A stretch of DNA of 64,000 nt from Maribacter cobaltidurans (GTDB taxonomy: Bacteria > Bacteroidota > Bacteroidia > Flavobacteriales > Flavobacteriaceae): positions 1,049,001-1,113,000 of the forward strand of contig NZ_CP022957.1 in the NCBI RefSeq assembly GCF_002269385.1. The letters are read 5' to 3'. Shown here piece by piece: positions 11,738 to 33,820 of this stretch. The notes beneath the pieces are model-generated. The model was not told the DNA's origin, did no database searches, and saw only the letters and a program-made list of their open reading frames with translations. The number at the start of each line of letters is the position of its first letter. Positions within the stretch are counted from its first letter, which is position 1. Both the position numbers and the translations under genes were made by a program.

Positions 11738-12826
11738 TTATATTTTTACAGCACAGTTTTGATTTGCCGACTTGTAAATTGCCTCCACGACCCGAATATC
11801 CCTCAAGCCTTCCTCTCCAGGAACCAACAAAGATTCTTGGTTCATTATGGCCCATGCATCTTCATCCATTTGCTTTGCCTGTTGATTTTCTATGGGAAAA
11901 TTAATTATGGTACTGTCGGACATACTGCCGTTGTTGCCATTGTAGGAAGAATGCGGCTCCATTTTAAGCCATCCTTTTTCATAATTGACCTGTAGATGGT
12001 TCATGTTTATCCCAAAACTGGTTTGACAGGAGGCCCGGGCACCACTCGGAAATTCCAATTGAAACATCATCGTCTCTTCCACTTCGTGATAAATTTCTGG
12101 TCGTGTTGTGGAAGCTTGTGCCATAACGGAATTGGGTTCTTCCCCTGTGGCCAATCGAGCTCCTTGTAAGGCATAAACACCCATATCCCCCATTGCACCG
12201 CCTCCCAAAGCCTTGTTCTGTTTCCAATGGTTTGTTCTACCATCAAAATACCCAGCAGCGGAAGTGACCATTTTCACCTTTCCAAAAGGGCGTTCCTTGG
12301 CAACGTTCATGTAAGCCTGTATGTTTGGGTCATGCTGACATCGATACCCTATAGCCAATTTTACCTTGTTATCGTCACATGCCTTAATCATGGCTTCACA
12401 TTCAGCTACAGAAGGAGCCATAGGCTTTTCGCACCATACATGTTTTCCTGTGTTGGCAGCACGTATCGTATACTCAGCATGCATGGAAGGAGGTAACACG
12501 ACATAGATAACATCAATGTCGGGGTTATTGGAAATGGAGTCAAAATTCCCATAGTTATAAACGTTCTTATCCTCAATGCCATATTTTTCCTGCCATATTG
12601 GAATTTTCTCCGGGCTTCCCGTAACAATCCCCTTCAACTCACAATTCTTGGTCAATTGCAATGCCGGGGCCAAAAGATCCGTGCTATAGTAACCCAATCC
12701 AACTAGGGCTACCCCTAATTTTTCTTTTTTAGGAGCCGTGGCCGATAATAATACGTTTGGTGAAAACGCTATCGCAGCACCTATTATCCCCGCTTTTTTG
12801 ATGAAAATTCTTCTTTGGTTTTCCAT
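11738..12826 (-). CDS. Exported Gfo/Idh/MocA-family oxidoreductase with twin-arginine signal
   Basis: A 362-residue protein beginning with a Tat-like signal: Arg5-Arg6 in RRIFIKKAG, then a hydrophobic stretch and an SATA cleavage region. The N-terminal Rossmann domain (GVALVGLGYYS) and the diagnostic EKP motif (VWCEKPMAP) identify glucose-fructose-oxidoreductase relatives. The Lys of EKP is usually catalytic. The C-terminal alpha/beta domain contains the GGGAMGDMGVYALQG segment. Such exported members carry a tightly bound NADP in the periplasm. It stands between the fucose operon (149 bases) and the RraA/enolase operon (166 bases). It could oxidise or reduce a sugar or sugar acid in the periplasm; the substrate cannot be told from sequence. 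Confidence 0.85.
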   Translation of the reverse strand: MENQRRIFIKKAGIIGAAIAFSPNVLLSATAPKKEKLGVALVGLGYYSTDLLAPALQLTKNCELKGIVTGSPEKIPIWQEKYGIEDKNVYNYGNFDSISNNPDIDVIYVVLPPSMHAEYTIRAANTGKHVWCEKPMAPSVAECEAMIKACDDNKVKLAIGYRCQHDPNIQAYMNVAKERPFGKVKMVTSAAGYFDGRTNHWKQNKALGGGAMGDMGVYALQGARLATGEEPNSVMAQASTTRPEIYHEVEETMMFQLEFPSGARASCQTSFGINMNHLQVNYEKGWLKMEPHSSYNGNNGSMSDSTIINFPIENQQAKQMDEDAWAIMNQESLLVPGEEGLRDIRVVEAIYKSANQNCAVKI

Positions 12827-12992
12827 AGTGACATGTTCTTCAAATCAATTACATTGTACATCAATTTTCCTACTTCCCATTTCAATTGCACACAAAAAAT
12901 ATGAATCCTACATGATTTTCATGAAAGTAAGGAATAGATTTTTAGACTAGTTTTATCTTAGAAGATAATATCCGCTTGTTGTCTACATTAAC

Positions 12993-13928
12993 TTACCATG
13001 TACGTTTCTTTAATATTTCCTGAATTTGTTCCCTGGATACGGGAAGATCATCAATATGTTCGTTTAGCCATTTACTAAAATCCTTTTCAATTTCATCGGC
13101 CCAACGTGTATCAATTTGTCCGGCAGTGTAAACTCCATCCTTAATCCGTTGATGCCCAAACATGTCCCGTAAACGGACAACTTCGGAAACCGTAGCCACC
13201 TTTTCTGCCAAGTGTGGGGGTATAAAGGTTACCACTCCCATTTTTCCCAAGACTACGTCTCCAGGCATTACGGTTACCGTTCTGATTCTGGTAGGTTGAT
13301 TGATTCCAATCAGCATAGTGTTCAAATCCCCTGGCGGATTATGGTGTGAAGCATCATAACTGGTATAATAAGAAGTAAAACCACCTATTTCCATGAGTCC
13401 CTCAACATCCCTTAGCGCACCATCATAAACAATTCCATTCCCAGATTTGGCATATATGGCATTACCTACGTTATCCCCAATCGTTGGTCCATCTTTGTCC
13501 GCTCCAAATTGGTCGGCTACGTAAACATCACCTTTTACCAAAATATCTACCGGCCACGTATTCTGTCCTCGCTTTCCTTGGGCCTTTCCTCGATCATCGA
13601 TGGCTTTCCAAACATCGGGCCGACCAGGCATAAAGGTTGCCGTAACCGCACGTCCTACAAGTACACTATCCGGGTTTATCATTTTCCAACCTTCGGCAAT
13701 TTGATATCTGTACCCTTCATTCTTCATAACGGCCCAAGCCTCTTCCACACTAACGGATTTTATTCTTTCCAAAAGGGCATCGGAAACCTTGGGTCTTCCA
13801 TCATCAAAACGTTCTCCCGTCCATTGGGGAGTTAAAAAAATGAGTTCTTCCTTACTGATTTGTTGCCCCATCATTTGGGTTGCCAAACCGACAAGAACCA
13901 CAATGAGCATATACTTTTTTCGTAACAT
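12993..13928 (-). CDS. Exported RraA-family protein (HMG/sugar-acid aldolase-like), copy 1
   Basis: A 311-residue protein with a Sec signal peptide (MLRKKYMLIVVLVGLATQMMG), longer than ordinary cytosolic RraA proteins (about 160-230 residues) because of extra N- and C-terminal parts. The RraA core is seen as GDVYVADQFG, GDNVGNAIYAKSG and VYDGALRDVEG. The Arg-Asp of the last motif matches the metal-site and active-site residues of HMG/CHA aldolases and oxaloacetate decarboxylases. It begins 27 bases after the enolase-family gene and shares its transcript. A paralogue lies at 16886-17824 with the same architecture. A periplasmic retro-aldol cleavage or decarboxylation of a keto sugar acid is plausible but unproven. 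Confidence 0.75.
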   Translation of the reverse strand: MLRKKYMLIVVLVGLATQMMGQQISKEELIFLTPQWTGERFDDGRPKVSDALLERIKSVSVEEAWAVMKNEGYRYQIAEGWKMINPDSVLVGRAVTATFMPGRPDVWKAIDDRGKAQGKRGQNTWPVDILVKGDVYVADQFGADKDGPTIGDNVGNAIYAKSGNGIVYDGALRDVEGLMEIGGFTSYYTSYDASHHNPPGDLNTMLIGINQPTRIRTVTVMPGDVVLGKMGVVTFIPPHLAEKVATVSEVVRLRDMFGHQRIKDGVYTAGQIDTRWADEIEKDFSKWLNEHIDDLPVSREQIQEILKKRTW

Positions 13929-13955
13929 GATAGTCTCTATTTAATGTGTTATTAA

Positions 13956-15236
13956 TTATTCAAAAAATGGTATTCCTTCAGGAGCATATTTTCGCATGGC
14001 ATCTTCATTGATGTCCACTCCAATACCTGGTTTTTCTGAAACTGTTACAAAACTGTCTTTTACCCAGTCTCCCTCGTCATACGTAACGATTTCCTTGAAC
14101 ATTGGATCTGTATGGAAATAGGATTGCCATTCCATTAAATGGAAATTTGGTACTGTGGCACAAACATGTGCACAGGCCATTGCGCCTAAGAAAGAAGCAA
14201 CCATATGCGGTGAGAAGGGAACATAGTAAAGATTAGCCAAGTTCGCTATACGTTGACCTTCACCTAGACCTCCACATTTTTGAAGGTCTGGCATAATAAT
14301 ATCCACGCCATTGTCCAACAGTTGTTTAAACCCATGACCTAAATACACATTTTCTCCTGCAGAAATCGGAGTACTGGTTTCTTCCGTAAGGGTTTTAAAG
14401 GCATCAAAATTTTCAGCAGGAATGGGTTCCTCCAACCAGGTCAGGTTTAAATCTTCCACCTTTTTTGCAATGGTCTGGGCCGTAACATGATCATATCGCC
14501 CATGCATATCAACACAAAGGTCTATTTTTGGACCAACGGCTTCCCTTACTGCTGCTAGTTGGTCATACATTCTTATGATTTCCCCTGGACTCGCCGTCCA
14601 ATTATAACGATCATATTTATCCGGGTCGCTGGCATAGTCCAAATCGAACTTCAATGCGTTAAAGCCCCAGTTGCTTATGGCATCCTTGGCCGCAGTTGCA
14701 AAATCGTCCGGTGACGGGAAACGAACACGATACAAGGCCGTGTCACAATAAACGCGGACTTTATCCCTAAATTTTCCACCTAATAATTTGTAAACAGGCA
14801 AGTCCAAAGCTTTGCCAGCCAAATCCCATAAAGCAGTTTCTATAGCCGAAAGAACAGCTACATAAGTACCTGACTGGGCACCACCGAAATGACCTGCTCG
14901 GCGAATATCCTCAAATATTTTATGAACATTGAAGGGACTTTTGTCTCTTAAAAAAAAGCCCATTCTTTTGACTAGGTGGTAGGTACCGGGTACTGCATCT
15001 ACACCCTCTCCACAACCATAAATTCCCTGATTGGTATGTATTTTCACAAACAGACCACTACCACGGCGAATAAAACCACATTTTACATCCGTAATCTTTA
15101 AATCAGAGGGTGCAGAAAGCTTAGGGTTTTTGTCAATAGCCGTTACATACTCGTTACCATAGGTACTTGAAACCATACCCAAACCGGCACCGGCCATTAG
15201 TGATTTTGATATAAAAGATCTTCTTGAATTTTTCAT
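13956..15236 (-). CDS. Exported enolase-superfamily acid-sugar dehydratase, copy 1
   Basis: A 426-residue mandelate-racemase/galactonate-dehydratase-like protein preceded by a Tat-like signal (Arg5-Arg6 in RRSFISKSL followed by a Gly/Ala/Met-rich stretch). In the barrel domain I see Lys196 (ALKFDLD), Asp243-x-His245 (DMHGR), Glu269/270 (WLEEP), Glu295 (SAGEN), Asp317 (PDLQKCGG) and His344 (SPHMVA). These correspond to the metal ligands and general acid/base residues of GalD-type sugar-acid dehydratases. It should convert an aldonate or uronate-derived acid to its 2-keto-3-deoxy acid. Most relatives are cytoplasmic; export is unusual. It lies 41 bases downstream of the BASS transporter gene. 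Confidence 0.8.
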   Translation of the reverse strand: MKNSRRSFISKSLMAGAGLGMVSSTYGNEYVTAIDKNPKLSAPSDLKITDVKCGFIRRGSGLFVKIHTNQGIYGCGEGVDAVPGTYHLVKRMGFFLRDKSPFNVHKIFEDIRRAGHFGGAQSGTYVAVLSAIETALWDLAGKALDLPVYKLLGGKFRDKVRVYCDTALYRVRFPSPDDFATAAKDAISNWGFNALKFDLDYASDPDKYDRYNWTASPGEIIRMYDQLAAVREAVGPKIDLCVDMHGRYDHVTAQTIAKKVEDLNLTWLEEPIPAENFDAFKTLTEETSTPISAGENVYLGHGFKQLLDNGVDIIMPDLQKCGGLGEGQRIANLANLYYVPFSPHMVASFLGAMACAHVCATVPNFHLMEWQSYFHTDPMFKEIVTYDEGDWVKDSFVTVSEKPGIGVDINEDAMRKYAPEGIPFFE

Positions 15237-15277
15237 TGGTTCTTTTGATTATTGTTAATATAATTTAATTATTTCCT

Positions 15278-16384
15278 TTAATTAGTTTCCAAAACTTTAG
15301 ATTCTATCTCCGTGGGCTTTCCGTGCCAATACGAGGCAAGTATAGATCCCGTTATGTTCATTAACGGTCCAAAAACCGCAGGAGCCAACCCCATAGTAGC
15401 AATTTTGCCAAGGCTGTTGGCAATACCCGAGGCCAGACCAGCGTTCTGCATACCTACTTCAATGGCAATTGTTCTTGAATCCTCTTCCGTCATACGAAAC
15501 AGTCTGGCATACCAGTATCCCAGCAAATAGCCGAAAAAGTTATGTACAAGTACAAGAACCATTAGAATCCCTCCTATTTCCAACAGGCTGTCCCTTCCCG
15601 CTGCAGTAATAATTGTAATTATTAGTCCAATGGCCAGCATGGAAATTAAAGGCATAGCCTTTTCTAACCATTTGACCCTATTACCGAATATCCTATTGAA
15701 AAGTAGCCCGGCACCAATAGGTATGATTATCATTTTAACGATACTCCACATCATGGCAAGAACATCTATTTCAATGAATTCGCCAGCAAATAACTTCATC
15801 ATTAAAGGTGTCAAAAAAGGCGCGAGTAATGTTGCTAACGAAGTAATTGTAATAGAAAGGGCGACATTGGCGTTGGCCAAAAATGCCATTACGTTGGATG
15901 CTACACCACTGGGCGAACACCCAATAAGCACAATTCCGGCCGCAATTTCCGGTGGAAAATTACTTATTTGGGCCAAACAATAGCCCACTATCGGCATTAC
16001 GATCAACTGTGCCGAAACCCCGATAAGAACTCCCTTAGGCGATTGAAATACTGCGGCAAAATCCTTGATGCTCATGGTAGTCCCCATACCGAACATGATA
16101 ACCTGTATTAATGGTATGATCAAGACCGTGTACTTAAAATCCCCGAAATTGGTAAAATAGGTAGGGTAATATAAAGCTGCGGCAACACCCGCAAAAATCA
16201 TAGTGGTAAATATTAATCCCTTCATTTTTTCATAGCCATTGAAACCAAGTGCCAATAATGCAAAGAAACCTAGAACAAAGGGTCCGGCTTTGTCTATGTT
16301 TCCCGTCACAATCATACCAATAATTACTAGAAATAAAAGGCCAGCCAAGCCCAAAGAAATTGAATATATATTTAGTTTTCCCAA
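15278..16384 (-). CDS. BASS-family (bile acid:Na+ symporter-like) organic acid transporter
   Basis: A 368-residue polytopic membrane protein. The two crossover motifs of the BASS fold are visible: GCSPSGVASNVMAFLANANV in the first half and EVGMQNAGLASGIANS in the second. BASS relatives move pyruvate, pantoate, 2-keto acids and other organic anions with sodium. Two extra N-terminal helices precede the core. The gene lies 11 bases after the NTF2-like gene and 41 before the exported dehydratase. Import of an acid made in the periplasm by its operon partners is a reasonable inference. Confidence 0.8.
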   Translation of the reverse strand: MGKLNIYSISLGLAGLLFLVIIGMIVTGNIDKAGPFVLGFFALLALGFNGYEKMKGLIFTTMIFAGVAAALYYPTYFTNFGDFKYTVLIIPLIQVIMFGMGTTMSIKDFAAVFQSPKGVLIGVSAQLIVMPIVGYCLAQISNFPPEIAAGIVLIGCSPSGVASNVMAFLANANVALSITITSLATLLAPFLTPLMMKLFAGEFIEIDVLAMMWSIVKMIIIPIGAGLLFNRIFGNRVKWLEKAMPLISMLAIGLIITIITAAGRDSLLEIGGILMVLVLVHNFFGYLLGYWYARLFRMTEEDSRTIAIEVGMQNAGLASGIANSLGKIATMGLAPAVFGPLMNITGSILASYWHGKPTEIESKVLETN

Positions 16385-16395
16385 GAGTATACGGT

Positions 16396-16866
16396 TTAAA
16401 GTTTATATGCTTGTCTTGCCAATAATTTCCATCCACCACCTTCTTTTTGAAAAATCAAAAGGCAACCAATTCTAACATCTGCAGGTTTACCGTTATTGGT
16501 GCCTTTTGCCTCAAATATATGGCGCACAACACCTACTTTTCCTGAAATTGAAATGGTTTGATCCTTGGGCGTAATTTCCGTAAACTGGAATGCCCCATTC
16601 AATACACCATCAACATATTCGGCTTTATTTTCTATAGTACCACTAGAATGGCCATAGGTTAATTCATCCATTGTCAGGTCCTGCAGTATGGCCTTATTCT
16701 TATCTACCATTGCTTTGTATAATTCTGTGACCGTTTTCTCTATTTTGGCAACATTTTTATCATCGCTTTGTGCCGATAATAACGAAAAACAGAATATGCT
16801 TACCAGGGTAAGAATTACTGATGGCCTGAACAGCATGGGTAACTTAATGGATTTCTGATTGTTCAT
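16396..16866 (-). CDS. Secreted NTF2-like (DUF4440/SnoaL-type) small protein
   Basis: The protein has 156 residues from ATG 16866 (MNNQKSIKLP). I prefer this start over one 16 codons upstream, since the upstream one falls inside the RraA copy 2 gene. A signal peptide ends near SLLSAQ. The mature part has the NTF2-like cone fold pattern: an early helix with TELYKAMVDKNKAILQDL, then strands ending in WKLLARQAYKL. Family members bind small molecules or act as lyases/isomerases, but many have unknown roles. Its position in the RraA/BASS/dehydratase operon suggests a periplasmic role on a sugar-acid intermediate. No catalytic assignment is possible. Confidence 0.7.
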   Translation of the reverse strand: MNNQKSIKLPMLFRPSVILTLVSIFCFSLLSAQSDDKNVAKIEKTVTELYKAMVDKNKAILQDLTMDELTYGHSSGTIENKAEYVDGVLNGAFQFTEITPKDQTISISGKVGVVRHIFEAKGTNNGKPADVRIGCLLIFQKEGGGWKLLARQAYKL

Positions 16867-16885
16867 TTTTAAAAAGTATTGGTTG

Positions 16886-17824
16886 TTAATTTTTTCTAGA
16901 CGCCATGTAATCATTTAGTTCTTTTCTGGTCATGGGCAATTTACTATCCGGATAGGATTTTAACCAATTTTCAAAATCGGCATTGATTTCATCGGTCCAG
17001 CGGGTGTCAATTTGGCCTGCTGTATATTTTTTTTCACGTAATCTCTGGAATCCAAAAAGGTCCCTTAGACCAACTATTTCGGAAGAAAGCACTAATTCTG
17101 AAGCCAAATATGACGGTATAAATACGGTTCCATGTCTATTTGCCAAAACCACATCCCCGGGCAATACCGTAGCCCTTCCAATGCGGATGGGTACATTGAT
17201 GGCCGTCAACATTTCCTCCTGGAGATAGGAAGGGTCCGCCCCCTTATGCCATCCATTGAAACCTTCAATATCCAATAGCCCCGCAACATCCCTAACTCCG
17301 CCATCAAATATGACCCCGTTCTTGGAATTGGTATAAATGGCATTTCCCAAATTGGAACCTATTAATGTACCATCTATAATTCTACCATAGCCATCTGCGA
17401 CATATACATCCCCAGGAACCAATTGCTGGATCGGCCATGAATTACTTCCTCCTATGGTATCCCTATTTTCCTTTGCTCCCTTTAATTTTATCAGTTTTTG
17501 ATAATCCGGCCTTAATGGCATGTATTGGGCGGTTACTACTCTTCCGGTCATTACACTATCTGGGTGTATAATTTCCCATTCCCCCTCATATTGATTGTTA
17601 TATCCTTTTCTTCGCAAGTATCCCCATGCCTCCTCTATTTGGATATTTTTCATTCTTTTCAACAGGGCATCCGAGACCTTGGGCCTCCCGTCCTTGAAGC
17701 GCTCACCGTTCCATTCAGAGGTTAATTCCTTAATATATTCTACAGACCCCGCTACGCCTTGGGAGATTCCTTCATACCCAAAAACTAAACAGGTTAGTGC
17801 AATTATTATCCTTAAATTTTTCAT
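16886..17824 (-). CDS. Exported RraA-family protein, copy 2
   Basis: A 312-residue paralogue of the protein at 12993-13928, collinear over its whole length. Shared landmarks include EWNGERFKDGRPKVSDALL near the N terminus, GDVYVADGYG, FDGGVRDVAGL with the conserved Arg-Asp, and a C-terminal YTAGQIDTRW block. It has a signal peptide (MKNLRIIIALTCLVFG, with a further Gly/Ser stretch). It opens the five-gene run RraA2, NTF2-like, BASS, dehydratase, RraA1. Two diverged copies in one operon could form a hetero-oligomer or act on two intermediates. Confidence 0.75.
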   Translation of the reverse strand: MKNLRIIIALTCLVFGYEGISQGVAGSVEYIKELTSEWNGERFKDGRPKVSDALLKRMKNIQIEEAWGYLRRKGYNNQYEGEWEIIHPDSVMTGRVVTAQYMPLRPDYQKLIKLKGAKENRDTIGGSNSWPIQQLVPGDVYVADGYGRIIDGTLIGSNLGNAIYTNSKNGVIFDGGVRDVAGLLDIEGFNGWHKGADPSYLQEEMLTAINVPIRIGRATVLPGDVVLANRHGTVFIPSYLASELVLSSEIVGLRDLFGFQRLREKKYTAGQIDTRWTDEINADFENWLKSYPDSKLPMTRKELNDYMASRKN

Positions 17825-17919: not shown

Positions 17920-17930
17920 CCGCATACCTC

Positions 17931-18023: not shown

Positions 18024-19523
18024 TTAACTATACGTTCTATCGTGTGATCTTAACTCGTTCCATTCCTCGGTAGACTTAAAGAAAGTCTTATCCGAAGGAT
18101 GTAAATGGGCCTTGACTACTTCTTCATCCAACTCGATACCCAAACCTGGTGCTGTCAGCGGTACGGTGGCAAAACCTTTATCGATCATTTTGAAACCACC
18201 AACTGTTTTCACCAAACTTTCCCACCAAGGCACATCGACGGAGTGATGCTCCAAGGCCAAAAAGTTTTGGGTAGCCGCGGCACAGTGTACATTGGCCATA
18301 AAAGAAACCGGGGTACCCGCCTGATGCATCGCCATGGCTATGCCATATTCTTCCGCGTAGTCACCGATTCTTTTTGTTTCCAAAAGTCCTCCGGAAGAGG
18401 CCAAATCTGGATGAACGATGTCGACCGCCCTATCATGGATGAGTGGCAGGAAATCCTTTAACAAATAGATATCCTCACCTGTCGTGGTTGGGGTCTCAAT
18501 GGCATCGGTTATGGTCCTCCATTGCTCGTTGTACTGCCAAGGAACCATATCCTCAAACCAAGCAAGTCTATACTTATCTAGGGCTTTTGCCAAACGGATT
18601 CCGTTGTTCAAATCAAAATGTCCATAGTGATCAGTAGAAATGGGAATTTCATAGCCGACCATGTTACGTACGTCCTCAACAACCTGCTGCAAAACTTCCA
18701 GACCTTTTTCGGTAATCTGAATCTGTGTAAATGGATGCATCGTATTGCCGTAGGACAGCATATTTCTACGATCGCCCCATTGTGCCAAAACGCCATTATC
18801 GTTCTCCCAGAACTTACCATTTACTACAGTGCCCGGTTTGCCGCGCAGCTCCCCAATGGAAACATCCATTTTTAGCCAGGTATAACCTTGTTCATTTACC
18901 CTGAAGTCAATCAGTCTTTTTTGTTCTTCTGGAGAAGATGCTTCCGGTGTATCCGCATATAGTCTAACCTTGTCCCGATATCTTCCTCCCAACAACTGCC
19001 AGGCCGGAACATTGTATGCCTTTCCGCAAATATCCCATAGCGCCATTTCCACCGCGCACACACCACCTGCCTGTCTTGCAGGTCCGCCGAACTGTTTGAT
19101 ACTTTTAAAAATCCTTTCTACGTTACAAGGGTTTTCTCCTAAAATACGACTCTTCAAAAACAGGGCATATCGAACATCGGCGGCGTCCCTTACCTCACCA
19201 AGACCATAAATACCTTGATTGGTCTCGATTTTAATAATGGCCGTACCGCCCATAACATTGGTCAAGGCATAGCGCATATCGGTAATCTTCAACTCCGAAG
19301 GGGCAGACATTCTACTCACCTTCGAAGTTGTTTGGGCAATGGTATCCTCGATACCAAGACCCATCATACCGGTCATGGCGATGCCTCCCAATGCCGTCTT
19401 CTTTAAGAAATTTCTTCTTTGGTCCGTGGTTCTGGGATTTTCCAGTTCCCTATTTCTAAGGGCCAAGAAAGTTTCTTCCTCCTTTTTAAATTTCGATATT
19501 AGTTTTTGCAGTGTGTTTTCCAT
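18024..19523 (-). CDS. Enolase-superfamily acid-sugar dehydratase, copy 2, with late twin-arginine motif
   Basis: A 499-residue protein. The first 30 residues form a charged helix (KFKKEEETFLALRNRELE); then comes a Tat-like signal with Arg36-Arg37 in RRNFLKKTALGG and a Met/Gly-rich hydrophobic run. The dehydratase core shows Lys218 (WLKMD), Asp298-His299 (TDHYG), Glu324 (WFED), Glu350 (TTGED), Asp373 (HPDLASSGG) and His400 (AMHQAG), matching the metal and acid/base positions of mandelate-racemase-type enzymes. It lies 61 bases after SusD, so it is probably co-transcribed with the SusCD pair, which ties its substrate to what that pair imports. The long N-terminal extension is odd; other start codons near the RR motif are not obvious. 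Confidence 0.8.
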   Translation of the reverse strand: MENTLQKLISKFKKEEETFLALRNRELENPRTTDQRRNFLKKTALGGIAMTGMMGLGIEDTIAQTTSKVSRMSAPSELKITDMRYALTNVMGGTAIIKIETNQGIYGLGEVRDAADVRYALFLKSRILGENPCNVERIFKSIKQFGGPARQAGGVCAVEMALWDICGKAYNVPAWQLLGGRYRDKVRLYADTPEASSPEEQKRLIDFRVNEQGYTWLKMDVSIGELRGKPGTVVNGKFWENDNGVLAQWGDRRNMLSYGNTMHPFTQIQITEKGLEVLQQVVEDVRNMVGYEIPISTDHYGHFDLNNGIRLAKALDKYRLAWFEDMVPWQYNEQWRTITDAIETPTTTGEDIYLLKDFLPLIHDRAVDIVHPDLASSGGLLETKRIGDYAEEYGIAMAMHQAGTPVSFMANVHCAAATQNFLALEHHSVDVPWWESLVKTVGGFKMIDKGFATVPLTAPGLGIELDEEVVKAHLHPSDKTFFKSTEEWNELRSHDRTYS

Positions 19524-21150: not shown

Positions 21151-21154
21151 TGTT

Positions 21155-24795: not shown

Positions 24796-26013
24796 TTAAA
24801 CTTTACCCATAGGCTTGTCGGTTTTAGGTTGTCTTTTTATAAGAATGTGATTTCCTTCGATTTCATAATCAAAGGGTGTTTCCAGCTTAAAGGTTTCCAA
24901 AACTTCCCTAATGGATTCCTTTTCGAAAGTGGCGGTAAAAACTCTACTATTTAGTTCTTGATACTCACTGGTTATGTTGACATTATAGTGTCGTTGAAGT
25001 CTTTTTACAATGTTTGAGAAAACCATTTCCTTCATCATCAACTTACCGTTTATCCAACCTGTATACAATTCCGTGGGCACCTTTTCCAATTGCATATTTT
25101 TTTCCTCTGGATTCCATTCTGCCTTATATCCTGGGGAAAGCAGGGTAGAATTCTCAACATCATATGTAGAACCTGTTTCATAGATTCTAACTGAACCTTC
25201 TACCAAAACCGTATTTTGACGTTTATCCTCCGGATAAGAGGTGACGTTAAATTTTGTCCCCAAAACCCTAACATCCACACCTCCTGAGGTAACTATAAAT
25301 GGACTGGATTCATTCTTGGTGACTTCAAAGAAACCTTCACCTATTAAAACGACCTCTCTATTCTTATCTTTTTGAAATTGTACGGGATACTTTAGAGAAG
25401 ACCCTGCATTCAAGTGCACCAATGTACCATCCGAAAGCACTACTTTAAATGTCTTGCCATTGGGTATACGCAGTGTATTATATTCTGGTGCACTATCATC
25501 CACATCATCAGATTTGGATTGGGAGTAGTCCACTAGACCGTCTACTTTCTTACCTAAAACTTCTCCTTCACTGTTTACAATTTGCAATGTACCTTCTCTT
25601 GTAAGTACTTGCGTGTTTCCATTTCCCAAATCCAGCGTAATGGAATTAGGATCTATTGGCTCAATAACTGTAGCCTCAGATTTAAAAGACCTGTAAGCTA
25701 AAAAGCAACCAAAGATTCCTACGAAAATGGCTGCGTATCTTAAAAGTGTGCGACTTGAAAATCTAACCACCCCCTTTCGTTGCTTTCTTTGAGCATCAAG
25801 AAGCAACTGCCATGCTTTTTGAGCATCCAATTCCTCAATATCAGGGATAGGCACTTTAAGCTCGTGTAATTTCTGAAGCCTTTTAAAGGTCAAAAGATTT
25901 TCATCCTTCTCAGAAAGCCAATTCTCAAAAAGAATTTCTTCTTCTTGGTTTAAATGACCTTTAATTTTCCTAATTATAATATCTGCTATCAATCTTATTT
26001 CTTTAATAGACAA
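24796..26013 (-). CDS. FecR-family anti-sigma factor (DUF4974)
   Basis: A 405-residue single-pass inner membrane protein. The N-terminal cytoplasmic part binds the sigma factor (LSEKDENLLTFKRLQKLHEL region). A transmembrane helix lies near residues 88-108 (LLRYAAIFVGIFGCFLAYRSF in part). The periplasmic FecR domain contains RIPNGKTFKVVLSDGTLVHLNAGSSLKYP-type text, with key LSDGT and LNAGS boxes. The C-terminal DUF4974 runs from about 330 (LMMKEMVFSNIVKRLQ). It relays the signal from the STN domain of the SusC encoded next. The sigma gene lies 91 bases upstream. Confidence 0.93.
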   Translation of the reverse strand: MSIKEIRLIADIIIRKIKGHLNQEEEILFENWLSEKDENLLTFKRLQKLHELKVPIPDIEELDAQKAWQLLLDAQRKQRKGVVRFSSRTLLRYAAIFVGIFGCFLAYRSFKSEATVIEPIDPNSITLDLGNGNTQVLTREGTLQIVNSEGEVLGKKVDGLVDYSQSKSDDVDDSAPEYNTLRIPNGKTFKVVLSDGTLVHLNAGSSLKYPVQFQKDKNREVVLIGEGFFEVTKNESSPFIVTSGGVDVRVLGTKFNVTSYPEDKRQNTVLVEGSVRIYETGSTYDVENSTLLSPGYKAEWNPEEKNMQLEKVPTELYTGWINGKLMMKEMVFSNIVKRLQRHYNVNITSEYQELNSRVFTATFEKESIREVLETFKLETPFDYEIEGNHILIKRQPKTDKPMGKV

Positions 26014-26104
26014 AACAACATTGTCTACTAATAAGACCTAGCAAGATTAATATCGGGTAGTGGATTCGTCAAAAAAATGTATCTTTTTTTGACAATTAGA
26101 TATT

Positions 26105-26608
26105 TTAGAAGAGCCAAAAATACACATCCTTCAAATTTAAACGTAGTAACTTAAAGGATTTCTTCAAGTGGTACTTTACCGTATTCACGGTAATTCCCAT
26201 AATTTCCGCTGCATTTTCATACTTGAGGTCTTCTAGAACACAGAGCTCAAATACTTTTTTGCTATGGTCCGGTAAAGCATCAATTTGTCTAAAAAGTGTA
26301 TCGGATATTTCCGAACGTATTAGTTCGTTTTCGTGTGAAGAGACCTCGGTTGAATAATTTTTAAGAGAAAAAGTTCGTTGACTTTTTTTAATTTTTTTTA
26401 AACTTTCATTTCTTATGCAAGTATTGATGTACTTTTTTAAGTCAACAATAGGAGCATCAAATTCTTTCTGTAAAAGTTTAATGAAAATGTTCTGTACAAC
26501 ATCCTTGGAATCCTCTAAATCCCCAACATAACTAAAAGACAATAAACACCATTCCTGATAATGTTTCAGAAACATTTCTTCAAGAACTAAAGAGTTTATC
26601 ATTCCCAT
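26105..26608 (-). CDS. ECF-type RNA polymerase sigma-70 factor
   Basis: A 167-residue sigma factor with region 2 (DSKDVVQNIFIKLLQKEF, about 33-50) and region 4 helix-turn-helix (LKYENAAEIMGITVNTVKYH, about 128-147). The N-terminal Met at 26608 and a second at 26602 are both usable. It pairs with the FecR protein encoded next and should drive transcription of the SusC/SusD operon when the anti-sigma releases it. It is the first gene of the sigma, anti-sigma, SusC, SusD, dehydratase series. Confidence 0.93.
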   Translation of the reverse strand: MGMINSLVLEEMFLKHYQEWCLLSFSYVGDLEDSKDVVQNIFIKLLQKEFDAPIVDLKKYINTCIRNESLKKIKKSQRTFSLKNYSTEVSSHENELIRSEISDTLFRQIDALPDHSKKVFELCVLEDLKYENAAEIMGITVNTVKYHLKKSFKLLRLNLKDVYFWLF

Positions 26609-28293: not shown

Positions 28294-30237
28294 TTGCCTA
28301 TGCCATTTAATAGTTATCGACCAGCAAGCGCACTCCTTTTTATAGGTTTTCTGAACCTACTTCTTTTAAGTTGTGATACTTCCAACAAACCGGAATGGGA
28401 AAAGCGCAATTCGGAATTAATCGAGGAGTTTGGCCTCACCGCTAGGAATCTGCCCAACCTACCTTCCTCAGATGTAGCCCCCAACTTAAAAGTGGGTACC
28501 CTTAGTAATCTTGGGAATATGGAAGGTATCTTACTATATCCCGGTATAACCGCCAAAATTTTCTGGGGAAATGGAAATTTAGTCAGTGTATTGGAACTAG
28601 AGGCCAATGCAACCCTGCCAGAAGAAGCTCTGCCAGCGGACCGGTTTCTGATACTTTCCCAAGGATCACTTGAATTAAACAGTGATGGGCAAAAGCATCA
28701 CATGATGGCCAAGGAGCGGGAAGAACCGGACGGCACTCACAGCGGAACTCCGAGAATGGATTTTATTTTTCAGGAAAAAGGTAGCAAAAGTGAAATCAAA
28801 GCAGGAGACACAGGTGCCAAAGTTATGGAAGTCTATAGCCCTCTTCGTTTGGATTATCTTGAAAAATTAGGTGTTTCCGACCTTCCCTCCGAAATTCCAC
28901 AAAGAAGTTCCAATAAGGAAGCGACGATTAATACCAACACCGTGTATGACTTTTATGATATTCAGTTAACACAACTTACAAATGGGGTATACACCAGACT
29001 TGTTTCGGCTGGCGACATACAACTTAGCTTAGTCTCTGCAGACCCAAATACACAATCGCAGGCACATATACATCCTGAGGAACAAATAACAATTTTGCTT
29101 AGGGGAAGCCTTAAAGAAACCGTTCTGGATCAGGAATTGGACATGGTACCACAGGATATAGTCTTGGTTCCCGGAAACGTGGTCCATTCTGGGGTTGCAG
29201 GTGAATTGGGTTATGATGCCTTGGATATCTTTTGGCCCGTACGTGAAGATTATTTGACCAAGCAAAAGATAGCACTTGAAAAATATCAAGAAATTATACC
29301 TGAGGGAGCAAAGCCCCAGTTGGTTATCGACGGAGCAAAGACAAAACCAACATTAACGTTTAGCGAAGGTCCTAAATGGATGGATGGTAAACTCTATTTT
29401 TCCAACATGTATTTTGACCAGAATTGGAACGCCGACCCAAAAAGAAGTTCCATTGTAGAACTAAAACCCGATGGTTCGTACAAAAATATTATGGAGGGCA
29501 AAATGCAGGCCAACGGCCTATATCCCTATAAAAATGGAAATTTGTTGGTCTGTGATATGATAGGGCACTGCGTGTTGGAAATGACCACTTCTGGCGATGT
29601 GGTACATGTCATTGCGGATTCCTACAACGGAAAACCTATAGATGGCCCAAACGATATAATCACCGATAGCAAAGGCGGTATCTATTTCACAGATCCCCAG
29701 TTTACCATGGAAGCGGAGAAGTTTCAGCCCGGCCGTGCCGTATACTATATATCACCGGATAAAAATATAACTCGGCTAGTTGAACCCAATGAATTTGCTA
29801 TGCCCAATGGAATTTTATTATCCCCGGACGGCAAAACGCTTTACATAAACAATTGCTATGACGATGAATCCTGGTATCCCGTAAATAGTTCCAAAGAAAA
29901 TTTTGTCTGGGCTTATGATGTAAACGATGATGGCACCATTTCAAACGGCCGAAAATTTGCGGAATTACGATTGACAGGAAATGTTTTGAATCGCAAAGGC
30001 AAATCCTCCAGCGCAGACGGAATGGCTATTGATACTATGGGCAATATTTATGTGGCCACTTATTTTGGAGTACAGATATTTGACTCAAAGGGTAGCTTCA
30101 TAGGGATGATAAACCTTCCCTCCTTTCCTGTAAGCTTAGGTTTTGGTGGGGAGGATATGAAAACCTTGTACATTGTTAGTTATGATAAGGTCTACAAGAT
30201 ACCAACCAATAGGACAGGGTATGTAAACTACCTATAA
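28294..30237 (+). CDS. Lipoprotein fusing two cupin domains to an SMP-30/gluconolactonase domain
   Basis: A 647-residue protein. The lipobox is LLLLSC with Cys27. Residues of about 60-200 form a first cupin-like domain (AKIFWGNGNLVSVLELEAN), and about 215-325 a second with the metal-binding His cluster HIHPEEQ. Residues from about 345 form a six-bladed SMP-30 lactonase propeller: FSEGPKWMDGKLYFSN at the start, DGPNDIITDSKGGIYFTDPQF in the middle and SSADGMAIDTMGNIYVATYFG near the end. The Glu, Asn and Asp metal ligands sit in those three boxes. It would hydrolyse an aldono-lactone on the outer or periplasmic face. The nearby PQQ dehydrogenase could make that lactone. This cupin-cupin-lactonase fusion is uncommon. 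Confidence 0.8.
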   Translation: MPMPFNSYRPASALLFIGFLNLLLLSCDTSNKPEWEKRNSELIEEFGLTARNLPNLPSSDVAPNLKVGTLSNLGNMEGILLYPGITAKIFWGNGNLVSVLELEANATLPEEALPADRFLILSQGSLELNSDGQKHHMMAKEREEPDGTHSGTPRMDFIFQEKGSKSEIKAGDTGAKVMEVYSPLRLDYLEKLGVSDLPSEIPQRSSNKEATINTNTVYDFYDIQLTQLTNGVYTRLVSAGDIQLSLVSADPNTQSQAHIHPEEQITILLRGSLKETVLDQELDMVPQDIVLVPGNVVHSGVAGELGYDALDIFWPVREDYLTKQKIALEKYQEIIPEGAKPQLVIDGAKTKPTLTFSEGPKWMDGKLYFSNMYFDQNWNADPKRSSIVELKPDGSYKNIMEGKMQANGLYPYKNGNLLVCDMIGHCVLEMTTSGDVVHVIADSYNGKPIDGPNDIITDSKGGIYFTDPQFTMEAEKFQPGRAVYYISPDKNITRLVEPNEFAMPNGILLSPDGKTLYINNCYDDESWYPVNSSKENFVWAYDVNDDGTISNGRKFAELRLTGNVLNRKGKSSSADGMAIDTMGNIYVATYFGVQIFDSKGSFIGMINLPSFPVSLGFGGEDMKTLYIVSYDKVYKIPTNRTGYVNYL

Positions 30238-30248
30238 AAAATATCGGT

Positions 30249-31487
30249 TTAATGCTGTACATCATCACCCATAACATCGTAGCCTCGCCATTTAAATTCC
30301 TTGGCTAGGCCGGAGGCAGCAGGCCATGCAATCTGATGTTGGTCACTTGCCACCCATTTTCTACGGTTTTCTTCGGTATCGAAGGATATCTGAATTTGGT
30401 AGTTGTAGGTTGTAGGTTCCGCTTGAATCTCCTTCGCCAAATCATCTGAAAAAAGCCGAAGCAATTTTGAGCTTAAATATCCATCTTGTACCACCATAGC
30501 GGGCACATAGATTGAATAGTACATTTTTTCAAAAGCGGCCGCGTTTTCCTTGTCCACTACAAAATCCATTTGCAAAGCCATGGCCTTTGGTTTTTCCAAT
30601 GGCCGAGCAATTGCCATTCCGTCATCCTTGGATCCGGCTATACCGATGACCAATATTTCGAGGTCATCCCCACCTGTACTCGACCAAGAAATTTCCTCCC
30701 CCAAACCGGCATAAAAAGAATCGTCTTTGCCGACATTGACCGTCTCAGAACCTACAGTTACCGCCCCAGTACCATTCATCACATAATATACTTCCTCTAC
30801 GCCCTCTAATTGACGTTTTTCAGTTTTACTGCCAGAAGGAACAACCAAATGGTCCACGTGGTGCCAGTTTGTTCGGAATACTTCCGGTCTTAACACTCGT
30901 CTATAAAGCACTCCTTCACCCTTATAAATTTTGTCCTCTAAACCCCTAAAACCTTTGTCTTCAGGCTTAAGCTCTTCCTTTATCAATCGCGAAGCGACAA
31001 ACGTTGGGATTTCATCTGTTTTGGACCCAACTAGATCATCCGCCAAATCAAAAGCGTCACCCTGTGCTTTTACCTCGCTTACCGCAAAGTTCAACCACTT
31101 TAGCGGTTTTCCCGAAGTATTATAAATTCCGTGAGAATCCCCTAGCTTACAAGGAACCAACGCTGGACCTTTAATTTTTGATGTTCTTCCATTAATGGTA
31201 AACTCAGCTTCCCCATCCAGAATGACATACATTTCTTCAATGGTATGGTGAAAATGATGTCCGATACCCGATTTAGGCTGGATAATACCTGAATGTAAAT
31301 ACAAAAAGTTAGTTGCCAGGTCATTCCGACCGATCATCTGTGTAAATCCCATTTTGCCGGCACCGGCATGTACTGCGCTCAATTCACGATAGGCAGATGG
31401 ATCATTGTGAACCACCCTTTCATTTAAATTTTGGGCCATGCAGAAACTGCCCACGATGCAGAACACTAAACTAAGTACTGTTTTCAT
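30249..31487 (-). CDS. Secreted dicupin protein with C-terminal dimeric alpha/beta-barrel-like domain
   Basis: A 412-residue protein with a signal peptide (VGSFCMAQ). The first cupin is around 45-140, with the metal-site signature GHHFHHTIEEMYVILDGEAE. The second is around 205-290, where TNWHHVDHLVV and VEEVYYVMNGTGAV serve the same role. The last 110 residues (from KAMALQMDFVV) look like an antibiotic-monooxygenase/ABM-type fold ending in WRGYDVMGDD. The enzymatic role is unknown; cupins with two metal sites can act as isomerases, dioxygenases or lyases. It is 56 bases downstream of the PQQ dehydrogenase and convergent, with an 11-base gap, to the SMP-30 fusion gene. Confidence 0.7.
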   Translation of the reverse strand: MKTVLSLVFCIVGSFCMAQNLNERVVHNDPSAYRELSAVHAGAGKMGFTQMIGRNDLATNFLYLHSGIIQPKSGIGHHFHHTIEEMYVILDGEAEFTINGRTSKIKGPALVPCKLGDSHGIYNTSGKPLKWLNFAVSEVKAQGDAFDLADDLVGSKTDEIPTFVASRLIKEELKPEDKGFRGLEDKIYKGEGVLYRRVLRPEVFRTNWHHVDHLVVPSGSKTEKRQLEGVEEVYYVMNGTGAVTVGSETVNVGKDDSFYAGLGEEISWSSTGGDDLEILVIGIAGSKDDGMAIARPLEKPKAMALQMDFVVDKENAAAFEKMYYSIYVPAMVVQDGYLSSKLLRLFSDDLAKEIQAEPTTYNYQIQISFDTEENRRKWVASDQHQIAWPAASGLAKEFKWRGYDVMGDDVQH

Positions 31488-31543
31488 AATAAATTATTTA
31501 TATAATACTCAACATACAAACGCATGCCATTTTTTCCAAAGTT

Positions 31544-33820
31544 CTATTTCTTATCCGGTATACCGTATACCACATATCCCTTGGCAATTGCTCCCGGCTT
31601 TTTTGAATGGTCGTAACTGTCACTTCTAAAATTAGAGGTTGCATTGATTACCAAATATTGCTTTCCGTCCAGAGTAAACATGCTTGGTTGGGCATTGGTC
31701 TCATTGCTCAAGGTCGTTTCCCAAAGCACACTCCCATCATCCGCATCCAGAGCATAAATCCTGCCTCCCTTAGCTGTTGTAAATACAATGCCAGTAGACG
31801 TAATAACCATGCCCTTTCGTTGGGTACCGTTAGGTGCTCCTTTGCTCTCGTCACCTTGAACATAAAGTGAATCCACTCCAATGGGTCGTCGCCATTTAAT
31901 AGTGCCATTGTTAAGGTCATAGGCTAGAATTGAAGACCAAGGCGGGTCGATTAGTCCGGGCCAATCCAAACCATAATCCGTAGTGTATCTATCTTCCGGA
32001 TGGTCAACACCTTCAGGATAATCCTGCATTGGAGCACCACGTTGTGCATCTGGTGAGGTGGTTACTCCTCCCGAAGCTACTACGGGACCATACACAGGTT
32101 CTGCCTGTTGATTACCAAATCTAAAACTTCTGCGTTCCGGATCACCACCAAGAAACTTGAATAAAGCTTTTAAGGACTCTTCGTCTACGTGAACCAAACC
32201 AGGCATTACACCCTTTCCATTGATTACGGTATTCCTGAATTCCGAATAAAACATGTGATGCCCAATGTTTTTTAGGGAAGGTCCTGCCCCACCCTCCATA
32301 TTTGGACCATGGCAGGCGATACAGGAGGAATTATAAAGGTTTTTGACCCTATCGACATCGTTGTCAGTGAGTTCATTTTTTGGTGGTTCAACCTTGTTCA
32401 ACCGATATGTAGATGCATACTCTTGGGTTTGAATGTACATGATACCATTGAGAGGGTCAGCCGCGGTATTGCCATAATTGGCGCCACCTAATGCACCGGG
32501 CATCATGATGGTCTCATATTTATCCGAAGGCGGTACGTACAATCCAGACTTGGCAGAATCCAGTCTTTGTAACCAATCTTGACGAAGGCTATCCGAAAAA
32601 TAGGGATTCAAGTTCTCTTTAGTTACCTCATGTCTGGTAAAACTGGGAAGCGAGCTTATAGGCTGTGTTGGCCAGGATTCCTCTCCTGGCATTTCGCTTT
32701 TGGGAAATGGTTTCTCCTCAATAGGAAATAAGGGCTCACCGGTTTCACGGTCGAACACGAATACAAAACCATGTTTTGTGGCTATGGCCACGGCATCCAC
32801 TTTTTTACCGTCTTTATCCACTGTAAGTAATTGAGGTGCGGGTGAAAGATCATAATCCCAAAGGTCATGATGAACGGTTTGGTAGTGCCATATCCGTTCC
32901 CCTGTTCTGGCGTCTACGGCGACCAAGGAGTTGGCAAACAAATTACTGCCCAAGCGATCTGCACCATAATAATCATAAGTTGGCGACCCTATTGGCAAAT
33001 AAGCAATCCCACGTTCGGGGTCTACCGAAATTTCACTCCATACATTGGCCCCACCTACATATTTATAAGCATCCTTGGGCCAAGTATCATAACCATATTC
33101 TCCTGGATGCGGAATGGTATGAAAGGTCCATTCCAGTTTACCTGTAACAACATTGTAAGCCCTAATGTGACCTGGTGGAGAAAAATAGCCTTCTCCGGGT
33201 GCCGAACCTAGTATCAGAAGGTCATCATAAATAACCCCCGGCATCATGGGTTGAATTCTAGTAATGGATGTTGGATCTCGATCTAATCCTTCCCTAAGAT
33301 CAACATATCCCTCAGTTCCGAAATCTAAAATTGATTTTCCAGTATCCGCGTTTATGGCCTGAATAGAATTATTAAGGGTAAACAACAATCTTTTGTCTTT
33401 TTTATCCTCGCTTTCCCAATAATTAATACCTCGTCTCGTAATACCGGGAAGGTCTGTATGTATCCAGAGTTCTTCACCTGTTTTGGCATGTATCGCGATT
33501 AGCGAACTATTCTTTCCCAATACATACATGGTACTGTCCACAATAATGGGACTGAAAAAATAAAACCGGTCATCACCGGAAGGATAGCTCCACAGCAGCT
33601 CCATTTGAGCCACATTGGACTTTGTTATACTGGGTGATTCAAAGAATTTGGATTGGTCCGGACTTCCACCATAATGGGACCACGTTGTATGGCGCGTAGC
33701 ATTTGTTTCTTTTTGTTGGCAACCTATAGTTAAAATTAAAATGGCAAGGCAAATTAGCTTACTTGGGGAAATGAAAAAAAATCGAGGCTTGAACATAAGT
33801 TTGTTAAATGGATAAACCAT
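31544..33820 (-). CDS. PQQ-dependent sugar/alcohol dehydrogenase, lipoprotein, with inserted cytochrome c domain
   Basis: About 758 residues from ATG 33820. A shorter start at 33796 and a longer one at 33898 are possible. The lipobox is LTIGC (Cys34). The quinoprotein propeller begins with WSHYGGSPDQSKF. Tryptophan-docking repeats are visible as GEELWIHTD, GKLEWTFHT, GERIWHYQT and GSVLWETTL. A c-type heme domain is inserted between propeller halves near residues 490-570, with CIACH (about 500-504) and a candidate axial Met in GKGVMPGL. This layout matches membrane-anchored PQQ glucose/alcohol dehydrogenases; electrons pass through the heme to the respiratory chain. It probably oxidises a sugar to its lactone outside the inner membrane. 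It lies downstream of the GH67 gene and shares a transcript with the dicupin gene. Confidence 0.85.
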   Translation of the reverse strand: MVYPFNKLMFKPRFFFISPSKLICLAILILTIGCQQKETNATRHTTWSHYGGSPDQSKFFESPSITKSNVAQMELLWSYPSGDDRFYFFSPIIVDSTMYVLGKNSSLIAIHAKTGEELWIHTDLPGITRRGINYWESEDKKDKRLLFTLNNSIQAINADTGKSILDFGTEGYVDLREGLDRDPTSITRIQPMMPGVIYDDLLILGSAPGEGYFSPPGHIRAYNVVTGKLEWTFHTIPHPGEYGYDTWPKDAYKYVGGANVWSEISVDPERGIAYLPIGSPTYDYYGADRLGSNLFANSLVAVDARTGERIWHYQTVHHDLWDYDLSPAPQLLTVDKDGKKVDAVAIATKHGFVFVFDRETGEPLFPIEEKPFPKSEMPGEESWPTQPISSLPSFTRHEVTKENLNPYFSDSLRQDWLQRLDSAKSGLYVPPSDKYETIMMPGALGGANYGNTAADPLNGIMYIQTQEYASTYRLNKVEPPKNELTDNDVDRVKNLYNSSCIACHGPNMEGGAGPSLKNIGHHMFYSEFRNTVINGKGVMPGLVHVDEESLKALFKFLGGDPERRSFRFGNQQAEPVYGPVVASGGVTTSPDAQRGAPMQDYPEGVDHPEDRYTTDYGLDWPGLIDPPWSSILAYDLNNGTIKWRRPIGVDSLYVQGDESKGAPNGTQRKGMVITSTGIVFTTAKGGRIYALDADDGSVLWETTLSNETNAQPSMFTLDGKQYLVINATSNFRSDSYDHSKKPGAIAKGYVVYGIPDKK

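Follow-up and report, generated by a model that had tools for sequence, protein, structure and literature searches.

In a stretch of 64,000 nucleotides of the Maribacter cobaltidurans genome (contig NZ_CP022957.1, positions 1,049,001 to 1,113,000, hereafter called the window), we found a cluster of genes for sugar-acid enzymes that carry export signals, arranged around an inner-membrane carrier of the BASS family. The cluster belongs to a gene set of marine and soil Bacteroidota in which plant or algal sugars seem to be oxidised and dehydrated on the outer side of the inner membrane before the resulting keto acid is imported. The account that we consider probable, if only just, is a split pathway in which dehydration proceeds outside, BASS imports the intact 2-keto-3-deoxy acid and the degradation is completed inside. 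The protein families, the export motifs, the conserved linkage of the genes and the absence of twin-arginine translocation (Tat) leaders from the enzymes that follow BASS were observed directly, and Pfam searches recovered, each in its place, all families that an initial annotation of this region had named. The genes concerned are:

11738-12826, minus strand: GFO_IDH_MocA (Gfo/Idh) oxidoreductase of the aldose-aldose/glucose-fructose oxidoreductase (AAOR/GFOR) type with a Tat-type leader, candidate for the aldose-to-lactone step (PF01408, 90.4 bits)
12993-13928, minus strand: RraA_A, an exported RraA-like protein adjoining Eno_A (PF03737, 54.5 bits; Sec-like signal)
13956-15236, minus strand: Eno_A, an enolase-superfamily (MR subgroup) dehydratase with a Tat-type leader (PF13378, 186 bits)
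15278-16384, minus strand: BASS (SBF) inner-membrane carrier, proposed importer of 2-keto-3-deoxy acids (PF01758, 135.5 bits)
16396-16914, minus strand: NTF2-like protein (DUF4440/SnoaL), probably exported (PF14534, 65.6 bits)
16886-17824, minus strand: RraA_B, an exported RraA-like protein and partner of Eno_B (PF03737, 65.4 bits; Sec-like signal)
18024-19523, minus strand: Eno_B, an enolase-superfamily dehydratase with a Tat-type leader and a long n-region (PF13378, 151.8 bits)
19585-21168, minus strand: SusD-like lipoprotein (PF12771, 241.7 bits), in the same place in relatives
21155-24715, minus strand: SusC-like TonB-dependent receptor with an STN domain (PF07715, 66.5 bits; PF07660, 40.8 bits), in the same place in relatives
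24796-26608, minus strand: FecR anti-sigma factor and sigma-70-family factor (PF04773, 53 bits; PF08281, 47.8 bits), in the same order in loci L071, L074 and L077
27001-28188, plus strand: FAH-family protein without signal, candidate 2-keto-3-deoxypentonate dehydratase (9kkt, 362 bits; 2q18, 76.7 bits)
28294-30237, plus strand: lipoprotein with cupin and SMP-30 lactonase domains, candidate aldonolactonase (PF08450, 132.1 bits; lipobox LLSC)
30249-31487, minus strand: exported double-cupin protein (PF07883, 61.2 bits)
31544-33898, minus strand: pyrroloquinoline quinone (PQQ) propeller dehydrogenase lipoprotein with an inserted c-type haem domain (PF01011, 519.3 bits; PF13442, 44.3 bits; CIACH; lipobox TIGC)

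What we infer is the order of the steps, the substrate of BASS, the sugar and the part played by the exported RraA. A saccharide released from polysaccharide would be imported by SusC and SusD (SusCD), after which an aldonolactone would be made in the periplasm, either by the PQQ/haem-c lipoprotein dehydrogenase or by the Gfo/Idh protein with its own bound cofactor, and opened by the SMP-30 lipoprotein. From two different aldonates Eno_A and Eno_B would form 2-keto-3-deoxy acids by dehydration, and BASS would carry these inward intact. Once in the cytoplasm, the pentose-derived acid would be dehydrated by the FAH enzyme to 2-oxoglutarate semialdehyde, to be converted to 2-oxoglutarate by an aldehyde dehydrogenase encoded elsewhere in the genome, and the hexose-derived acid would be processed by 2-keto-3-deoxygluconate kinase (KdgK) and 2-keto-3-deoxy-6-phosphogluconate aldolase (KdgA). 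Still outside, the exported RraA may split a portion of the keto acid. As a first guess, the sugar is a xylan pentose.

Export signals were judged with a motif script of our own and not with SignalP or TatP; for Tat it demands RR, any residue and a hydrophobic residue, followed by an uncharged hydrophobic stretch. A second script for Sec signals or transmembrane segments (Sec/TM) is weak, as it also passes 3/3 GarR and 2/4 short-chain dehydrogenase/reductase (SDR) open reading frames (ORFs). The RR motifs previously reported on the Gfo/Idh protein and on both enolase-family proteins are indeed there, each before an uncharged hydrophobic stretch (RRIFIKK in Gfo/Idh, RRSFISK in Eno_A and RRNFLKK at residue 36 in Eno_B), and these three proteins are the Tat positives of the window, together with one clear false positive, the permease FucP. 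TatC, on the presence of which the initial annotation had made its pathway depend, is encoded once in the genome (224.5 bits). In 53 loci, 20 of them regions around RraA matches in a survey of 395 class genomes and 33 around named RraA relatives, the Tat test was passed by all 42 Eno_A and all 20 full-length Eno_B relatives (62/62) compared to 9/347 unlabelled ORFs, and by 4/6 Gfo/Idh-labelled and 3/5 DgaE-labelled ORFs. None of the FAH (0/13; 4 long, 9 short), 2-oxoglutarate semialdehyde dehydrogenase-like (KGSADH-like; 0/10), KdgK (0/3), KdgA (0/3), IlvD (0/6) and GntK (0/10) ORFs passed it, and the Sec/TM test was passed by 1/10 KGSADH-like ORFs and by none of the other five kinds. A Tat leader is not a trait of the entire superfamily, since only three of the eight MR_MLE_C matches in the M. 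cobaltidurans genome have an RR leader, the other five lacking a Tat leader in the ORFs read. The Sec/TM test passed 63/70 full-length RraA relatives (40/44 A, 23/26 B) compared to 166/347 unlabelled ORFs, and the RraA N-termini were read by eye as signal peptides. The Sec signals claimed for this region could be upheld for both RraA proteins and less firmly for the NTF2-like protein, which fails the signal tests from its listed start; a signal appears only if an internal Met is taken as the start instead (MLFRPSVILTLVSIFCFSLLSAQ). Likewise, of the two supposed lipoproteins SMP-30 has its lipobox in place, and the PQQ dehydrogenase fails the tests from its listed start, its lipobox appearing only from an internal Met. 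Judged by these motifs, the boundary between exported and signal-less proteins would fall at BASS, RraA being the only protein that is hard to place.

Outside the window and unlinked to it, the same genome encodes a third enolase-family protein with a Tat leader (L103:7635-8933, plus strand; C1, 1636634-1637932), which is likely an exported galactonate dehydratase because it exceeds the NCBI cut-off for that enzyme (334.9 compared to 311 bits). Proteins of the YhcH/YjgK/YiaL family, a further cytosol-associated family apparently exported, have signal peptides by eye in two of the loci (L050:5592-6197 and L079:12475-13086, both plus strand).

The linkage of these genes was followed across the class genomes. 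RraA_A was matched at E 1e-3 in 19/395 genomes, 14 strongly (E <1e-60) and 5 weakly, the strong ones spanning six family codes; of 25 strong RraA matches, 2 lie in the window, 22 in the 20 regions mentioned above and 1 (G383, on a 3.5 kb contig) outside the 53 loci. Eno_A was matched at E 1e-60 in 10/395 genomes, and in 10/10 an RraA match directly adjoins it at a distance of 14-80 bases; Eno_B was matched in 9/395 genomes, with RraA adjoining in 6/9. BASS gave 16 matches in 14/395 genomes, 7/16 of them beside RraA. The co-occurrence of exported enolase, RraA and BASS genes in related genomes, proposed as a check by the initial annotation, was thus recovered for the enolases and RraA and in part for BASS, which is present in 35/53 loci. 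A dehydratase of the exported kind is found in 51/53 loci (a full-length enolase in 47, a DgaE-type lyase in 4, neither in L050 and L061), with Eno_A in 42/53 and Eno_B in 21/53 (20 full length, the one in L042 a 220-residue remnant), next to SusC (28/53), SusD (24/53), NTF2-like (19/53), PQQ dehydrogenase (11/53), SMP-30 (11/53) and cupin (10/53) genes. In Allomuricauda (L065, L067-L069) the order is SusC-SusD-Eno_B-RraA_B-NTF2-BASS-Eno_A-RraA_A-PQQ dehydrogenase-cupin, followed by SMP-30 on the opposite strand; in L066 and L071, the latter without Eno_B and RraA_B, FAH lies behind PQQ dehydrogenase-cupin. L087 combines on one strand SusC-SusD-RraA-Eno-BASS-3-keto-disaccharide hydrolase-PQQ dehydrogenase-cupin-SMP-30-FAH, and next to it, on the opposite strand, a KGSADH-like gene. 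SusCD, the signal-less FAH and the exported double cupin, which had not been listed in the initial annotation, belong to the same set in relatives. That the signals are non-functional or the linkage fortuitous, and the proteins simply cytosolic sugar-acid enzymes, is in our judgement highly improbable: although the signals were judged by motif scripts, the 62/62 Tat positives over the low background, the Tat-negative enzymes following BASS, the five enolase-superfamily matches of the same genome without Tat leader and the invariable adjacency of Eno_A and RraA all speak against it.

Both enolase-family proteins exceed the Pfam cut-offs for the MR_MLE C and N domains (29.4 and 22 bits), Eno_A with 186 and 41.2 bits and Eno_B with 151.8 and 43.5 bits. 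D243, E269, E295, K196, D198, D317 and H344, which we take to be the three metal-binding carboxylates, the KxD lysine and the Asp-His dyad, are invariant in 64/64 and 24/24 alignment rows. The DxH-motif H245 is present in the window Eno_A, and the window Eno_B has its H one residue earlier. Because the metal ligands and the Asp-His dyad are kept, aldonate dehydratase activity is the natural reading of both sequences. With the D-galactonate dehydratase model NF010624 they reach 233.7 and 182.4 bits, below its cut-off of 311. The best PDB match of Eno_A is 2qq6 (40% identity); a role as 3,6-anhydrogalactonate cycloisomerase was set aside, 5olc being only 28% identical and at rank 18.

BASS matches PF01758 well above the cut-off (24.3 bits), and its best NCBIfam model is PanS (NF047939; 243 bits, below the cut-off of 400). 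The intact import of its proposed cargo is suggested by the company it keeps. FAH genes occur in 13/53 loci (4 long, 9 short), KGSADH-like genes in 9/53 and KdgK with KdgA in 3/53, and directly behind BASS on the same strand lie FAH in 5/35 and KdgK in 3/35 loci. The window FAH resembles the 2-keto-3-deoxy-D-arabinonate dehydratase 2q18 less (76.7 bits) than does a short FAH of a relative (155.4 bits). In L074, L075 and L077 the order is BASS-KdgK-KdgA, and in Mucilaginibacter (L085, L086, L089, L093) it is RraA-Eno-BASS-FAH, then IlvD and GntP, with a KGSADH-like gene in 2/4. In L073 a long FAH gene of the window type and a KGSADH-like gene share a strand and are 3 bases apart, and NTF2-RraA-Eno-BASS-PQQ dehydrogenase-cupin faces away from this pair. 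By homology, FAH, the KGSADH-like protein, KdgK and KdgA would act on intact 2-keto-3-deoxy acids or on their products; import of an intact acid is suggested because this holds for FAH and, in other loci, for KdgK/KdgA, and import before cleavage is favoured because the enzymes encoded beside BASS in relatives use intact acids and have no Tat leaders. In the M. cobaltidurans genome one aldehyde dehydrogenase shares 51% identity with the KGSADH-like protein of L085 and is encoded near genes for glucuronate isomerase, a KdgK-like kinase, KdgA and tagaturonate reductase; KdgA scores above its cut-off, and the kinase has KdgK as best match but remains below the cut-offs. This aldehyde dehydrogenase may be the one that serves the pathway. 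The initial annotation had let RraA cleave or decarboxylate the acid before BASS imports the product. Its exported gene set and its candidates for oxidation, lactone opening, dehydration and transport stand; the placement of RraA cleavage before import has been revised, and for decarboxylation by RraA no evidence was found.

RraA_A and RraA_B exceed the PF03737 cut-off of 24.5 bits, and their fold is supported by sequence and by a model (5x15, 3k4i, 3noj; pLDDT 86.7). At about 310 residues the proteins extend beyond the Pfam core, where conserved stretches are found as well as a signal peptide; the nearest named relative of RraA_A, from Maribacter sp. PR1, is 99% identical. In a tree of 72 RraA rows, for which the program warns of long branches so that deep joins are unsure, the 41 rows adjoining Eno_A, including RraA_A, form one clade with full support, and the labels of the partner dehydratases require 5 changes compared to a shuffled mean of 26.7 (0/200 as low), with the exception of L084_9, which is labelled Eno_A and placed among Eno_B partners. 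Since RraA subfamilies track their partner dehydratases, the two seem to have moved together, an indication that they share a substrate or product. This tie by position and phylogeny is also what one would expect if the exported RraA proteins were periplasmic pyruvate aldolases (Dahms-type), BASS imported pyruvate and the aldehyde were oxidised, perhaps by the PQQ dehydrogenase, an alternative which we regard as rather unlikely. The RraA proteins do resemble the HMG/CHA aldolase 3noj (profile match 2.2e-7; Foldseek of the model 4.7e-12), but they score below the aldolase equivalog cut-offs (31.9 and 49 bits compared to 304.5 for TIGR02798; 33.2 and 48.5 bits compared to 179 for NF006731). In D-x20-R-D, presumably the aldolase motif, D152, R173 and D174 are kept in 44/45, 45/45 and 45/45 A rows, and in B rows R173 and D174 (27/27, 26/27) are retained, whereas D152 is present in 10/27 and lost in 17/27. 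In L051-L054 an RraA accompanies a DgaE-type lyase, where a cytosolic set would have the aldolase DgaF; L132, however, has DgaE, RidA, SMP-30 and BASS without RraA. Moreover, the FAH, KGSADH-like, KdgK and KdgA proteins beside BASS, lacking Tat leaders, would have intact acids or their products as substrates, which argues for the import of the uncleaved acid.

In L059 (G014:C17, near 126120-127021) Eno_A is intact and the neighbouring RraA gene is interrupted by an in-frame TGA, which marks either a pseudogene or a sequencing error. The 220-residue ORF of L042 (G267:C39:338053-338715), with an RraA-like start and Eno_B as best match, seems to be what is left of an RraA_B/Eno_B pair after fusion.

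Several points weigh against the split pathway. An RraA acting as aldolase would destroy the proposed cargo of BASS, and RraA clades that track the dehydratase would also be compatible with a cleavage that comes next, still outside, and is matched to the substrate. BASS is absent from 18/53 loci and 9/16 of its matches do not lie beside RraA; one of these nine lies in a DgaE/RidA set (L132), and beside the other eight no exported dehydratase was recognised. No RraA was found beside Eno_B in a flank of about 1.5 kb in 3/9 genomes. The locus counts are not independent, as many of the 53 loci are closely related; in the named set, the first third consists mostly of Maribacter, Allomuricauda and Pricia. 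None of the enolases, RraA, BASS and Gfo/Idh proteins reaches an NCBIfam equivalog cut-off. The name KGSADH is far from its cut-off too, the L085 protein scoring 99.2 bits with NF042993, its best match (cut-off 770), and its homologue in the M. cobaltidurans genome having no NCBIfam match at 1e-40. IlvD and GntP genes are further neighbours of FAH in Mucilaginibacter, so that the enzyme may there serve an aldonate imported by GntP. Finally, the M. cobaltidurans genome yielded no PqqE above the cut-off and no PqqC match, an absence that is unproven as no control genome exceeded either cut-off; PQQ may have to be scavenged.

For the oxidation step the window offers two candidates. The Gfo/Idh protein is closest in the PDB to AAOR (5a02, 270.6 bits) and GFOR (1ofg, 233.5 bits), over 327 residues and with the CEKPMA segment aligned, the best chain outside these enzymes scoring 111.9 bits, and is more aptly described as a self-recycling aldose oxidoreductase of AAOR/GFOR type. 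These enzymes keep NADP(H) tightly bound, transfer hydride from sugar to sugar and are used outside the cytoplasm. Export of the Gfo/Idh protein is plausible because of this kinship, and since the cofactor stays bound, the difficulty usually seen in exporting an NAD(P) enzyme would not arise. Two other identities, 3-keto-glycoside dehydrogenase (46.8 bits compared to a cut-off of 750) and Gfo6 xylose dehydrogenase (164.5 compared to 350), were rejected as AAOR/GFOR fit better. The Gfo/Idh protein and the PQQ dehydrogenase may be alternative lactone-making routes, both carried by the window, because in L062 and L063 Gfo/Idh takes the position behind RraA_A that the PQQ dehydrogenase holds in eight relatives (L064-L069, L071, L072). 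The SGL domain of the SMP-30 protein scores 132.1 bits (cut-off 26.3), and its segments SEGP, PND and ADG, whose E, N and D we take to be the SMP-30 metal ligands, align with 3e5z.

As to the sugar, the xylan setting, a protein cluster present in 12/53 loci of which the one scanned member (L069) combines SASA and esterase, the glucuronoyl esterases of L045 and L050 and the arabinose genes of L072 and L073 (Pricia, Euzebyella) seem to point to xylan sugars. Instead of free pentonates, the exported dehydratases could act on uronate-derived or acidic oligosaccharides, e.g. an aldobionate or oxidised 4-O-methylglucuronate from glucuronoxylan, which we deem improbable. GH67 and GH10 in the window, GH67 in L044 and L045 and the glucuronoyl esterases would agree with such substrates, as would KdgK/KdgA in L074, L075 and L077; but in L045, where GH67 and the esterase occur together with UxuA, the latter already provides an inside route for glucuronate. 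The arabinose genes beside the set in L072 and L073 and the recurrence of an FAH related to 2-keto-3-deoxypentonate dehydratase in 13/53 loci likewise favour pentonates.

The same logic seems to be repeated with another dehydratase. In L051, L052 and L053 RraA is accompanied by a DgaE-type pyridoxal phosphate (PLP) lyase, a RidA homologue and an exported amidohydrolase; the DgaE and RidA proteins carry RR leaders by eye, 3/5 DgaE and 2/3 RidA passing the strict Tat test. L132 has the DgaE-type, RidA and amidohydrolase set with BASS and SMP-30, no RraA being found in the 15 kb read; its DgaE-like ORF was named by its match to the L053 ORF (192 bits) and has no Pfam match at 1e-6. BASS lies beside the DgaE/RidA set in L051, L052 and L132 (3/4 loci). 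PLP lyases release an enamine that RidA clears away, and because both proteins have export leaders their joint presence supports real extracytoplasmic chemistry of this kind, perhaps a parallel exported pathway for amino-sugar acids. In Cyclobacterium (L084, L088, L094) a UxuA-like mannonate dehydratase homologue, Tat-positive in 3/3, is encoded near RraA/Eno, GarL, GarR and a glucarate dehydratase-like gene. A wider reading, that Tat-exported dehydratases (an enolase, or DgaE with an exported RidA) are interchangeable, BASS has a new specificity and a dehydratase-matched RraA performs a new reaction on the keto acid, is put forward tentatively, as possible but somewhat short of probable.

For each enzyme of the non-phosphorylative Weimberg/Dahms oxidation of pentoses (dehydrogenase, SMP-30 lactonase, aldonate dehydratase, 2-keto-3-deoxypentonate dehydratase and aldehyde dehydrogenase) the proposed pathway has a candidate, but here the steps up to the 2-keto-3-deoxy acid have export signals, the dehydratases are of the enolase family and a carrier would join the two halves. 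In Pseudomonas and acetic acid bacteria, periplasmic glucose oxidation involves PQQ glucose dehydrogenase, gluconate and 2-ketogluconate; there too a PQQ dehydrogenase makes acids outside that are then imported, whereas here dehydration by dehydratases with Tat leaders also appears to take place outside. To our knowledge, sugar-acid dehydration is treated as a cytosolic step. The Gfo/Idh protein has the match over 327 residues, the CEKPMA segment and a Tat-type leader in common with the Zymomonas GFOR and Caulobacter AAOR, which we assume to be the sources of 1ofg and 5a02, but lies in a SusCD operon with dehydratases. The RraA proteins share the fold and the R-D pair with the RraA-like/HMG-CHA aldolase family (PF03737), from which their length, signal peptide and scores below the aldolase cut-offs set them apart. 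An exported Gfo/Idh protein in Bacteroidota and the 3-keto-disaccharide hydrolase of L087 recall the periplasmic 3-keto-glycoside pathway of Bacteroides; the window protein, however, stays at the above 46.8 bits with BT_2158_fam, is of AAOR/GFOR type and stands with sugar-acid dehydratases. If true, a conserved extracytoplasmic dehydration would alter how the flow of sugar through Bacteroidota that degrade xylan and algae is modelled. Exported RraA, enolase, DgaE and RidA proteins, whose families are known from the cytosol, would gain a function, and a BASS carrier that takes up 2-keto-3-deoxy acids would be predicted. Because exported and signal-less proteins part at BASS, every step can be tested directly.

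With regard to the layout of the window, a run of closely spaced minus-strand genes extends from 24715 to 7230 and comprises SusC, SusD, Eno_B, RraA_B, NTF2-like, BASS (which, as initially annotated, sits among the exported genes), Eno_A, RraA_A and Gfo/Idh, followed by genes for a zinc-dependent alcohol dehydrogenase (Zn-ADH), a fuconolactonase-like amidohydrolase, an SDR, FucP and RhaM. The sigma factor and FecR genes upstream of SusC likely control the SusCD operon. GH67 lies on the minus strand with the double cupin and the PQQ dehydrogenase, and beyond it follow a hybrid two-component regulator, GH10, GH43, SASA, GH95 and esterases; this part is taken for a glucuronoxylan locus. No tRNA was found in the window, and its promoter and terminator counts are barely above those of shuffles (52 compared to 46.5 and 17 compared to 15.7).

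The genes at 7230-11588 (RhaM, FucP, SDR, L-fuconolactonase-like, Zn-ADH) look like a cytosolic module for L-fucose oxidation, with FucP at 536 bits (cut-off 280.4) and the L-fuconolactonase-like protein at 279 bits (cut-off 400); no signal-less L-fuconate dehydratase was found within 7230-11588. This module was rejected as core of the set, Gfo/Idh and the module standing behind RraA_A in only L062 and L063 of the 53 loci. At 755-4487 an AcrB-family efflux protein is spread over two ORFs (665 and 602 aa), which overlap and each match another portion of the Pfam model, as if a single gene had been split by a frameshift. An FG-GAP/ASPIC-UnbV lipoprotein (46650-49985, minus strand) sits between two parts of the polysaccharide locus.

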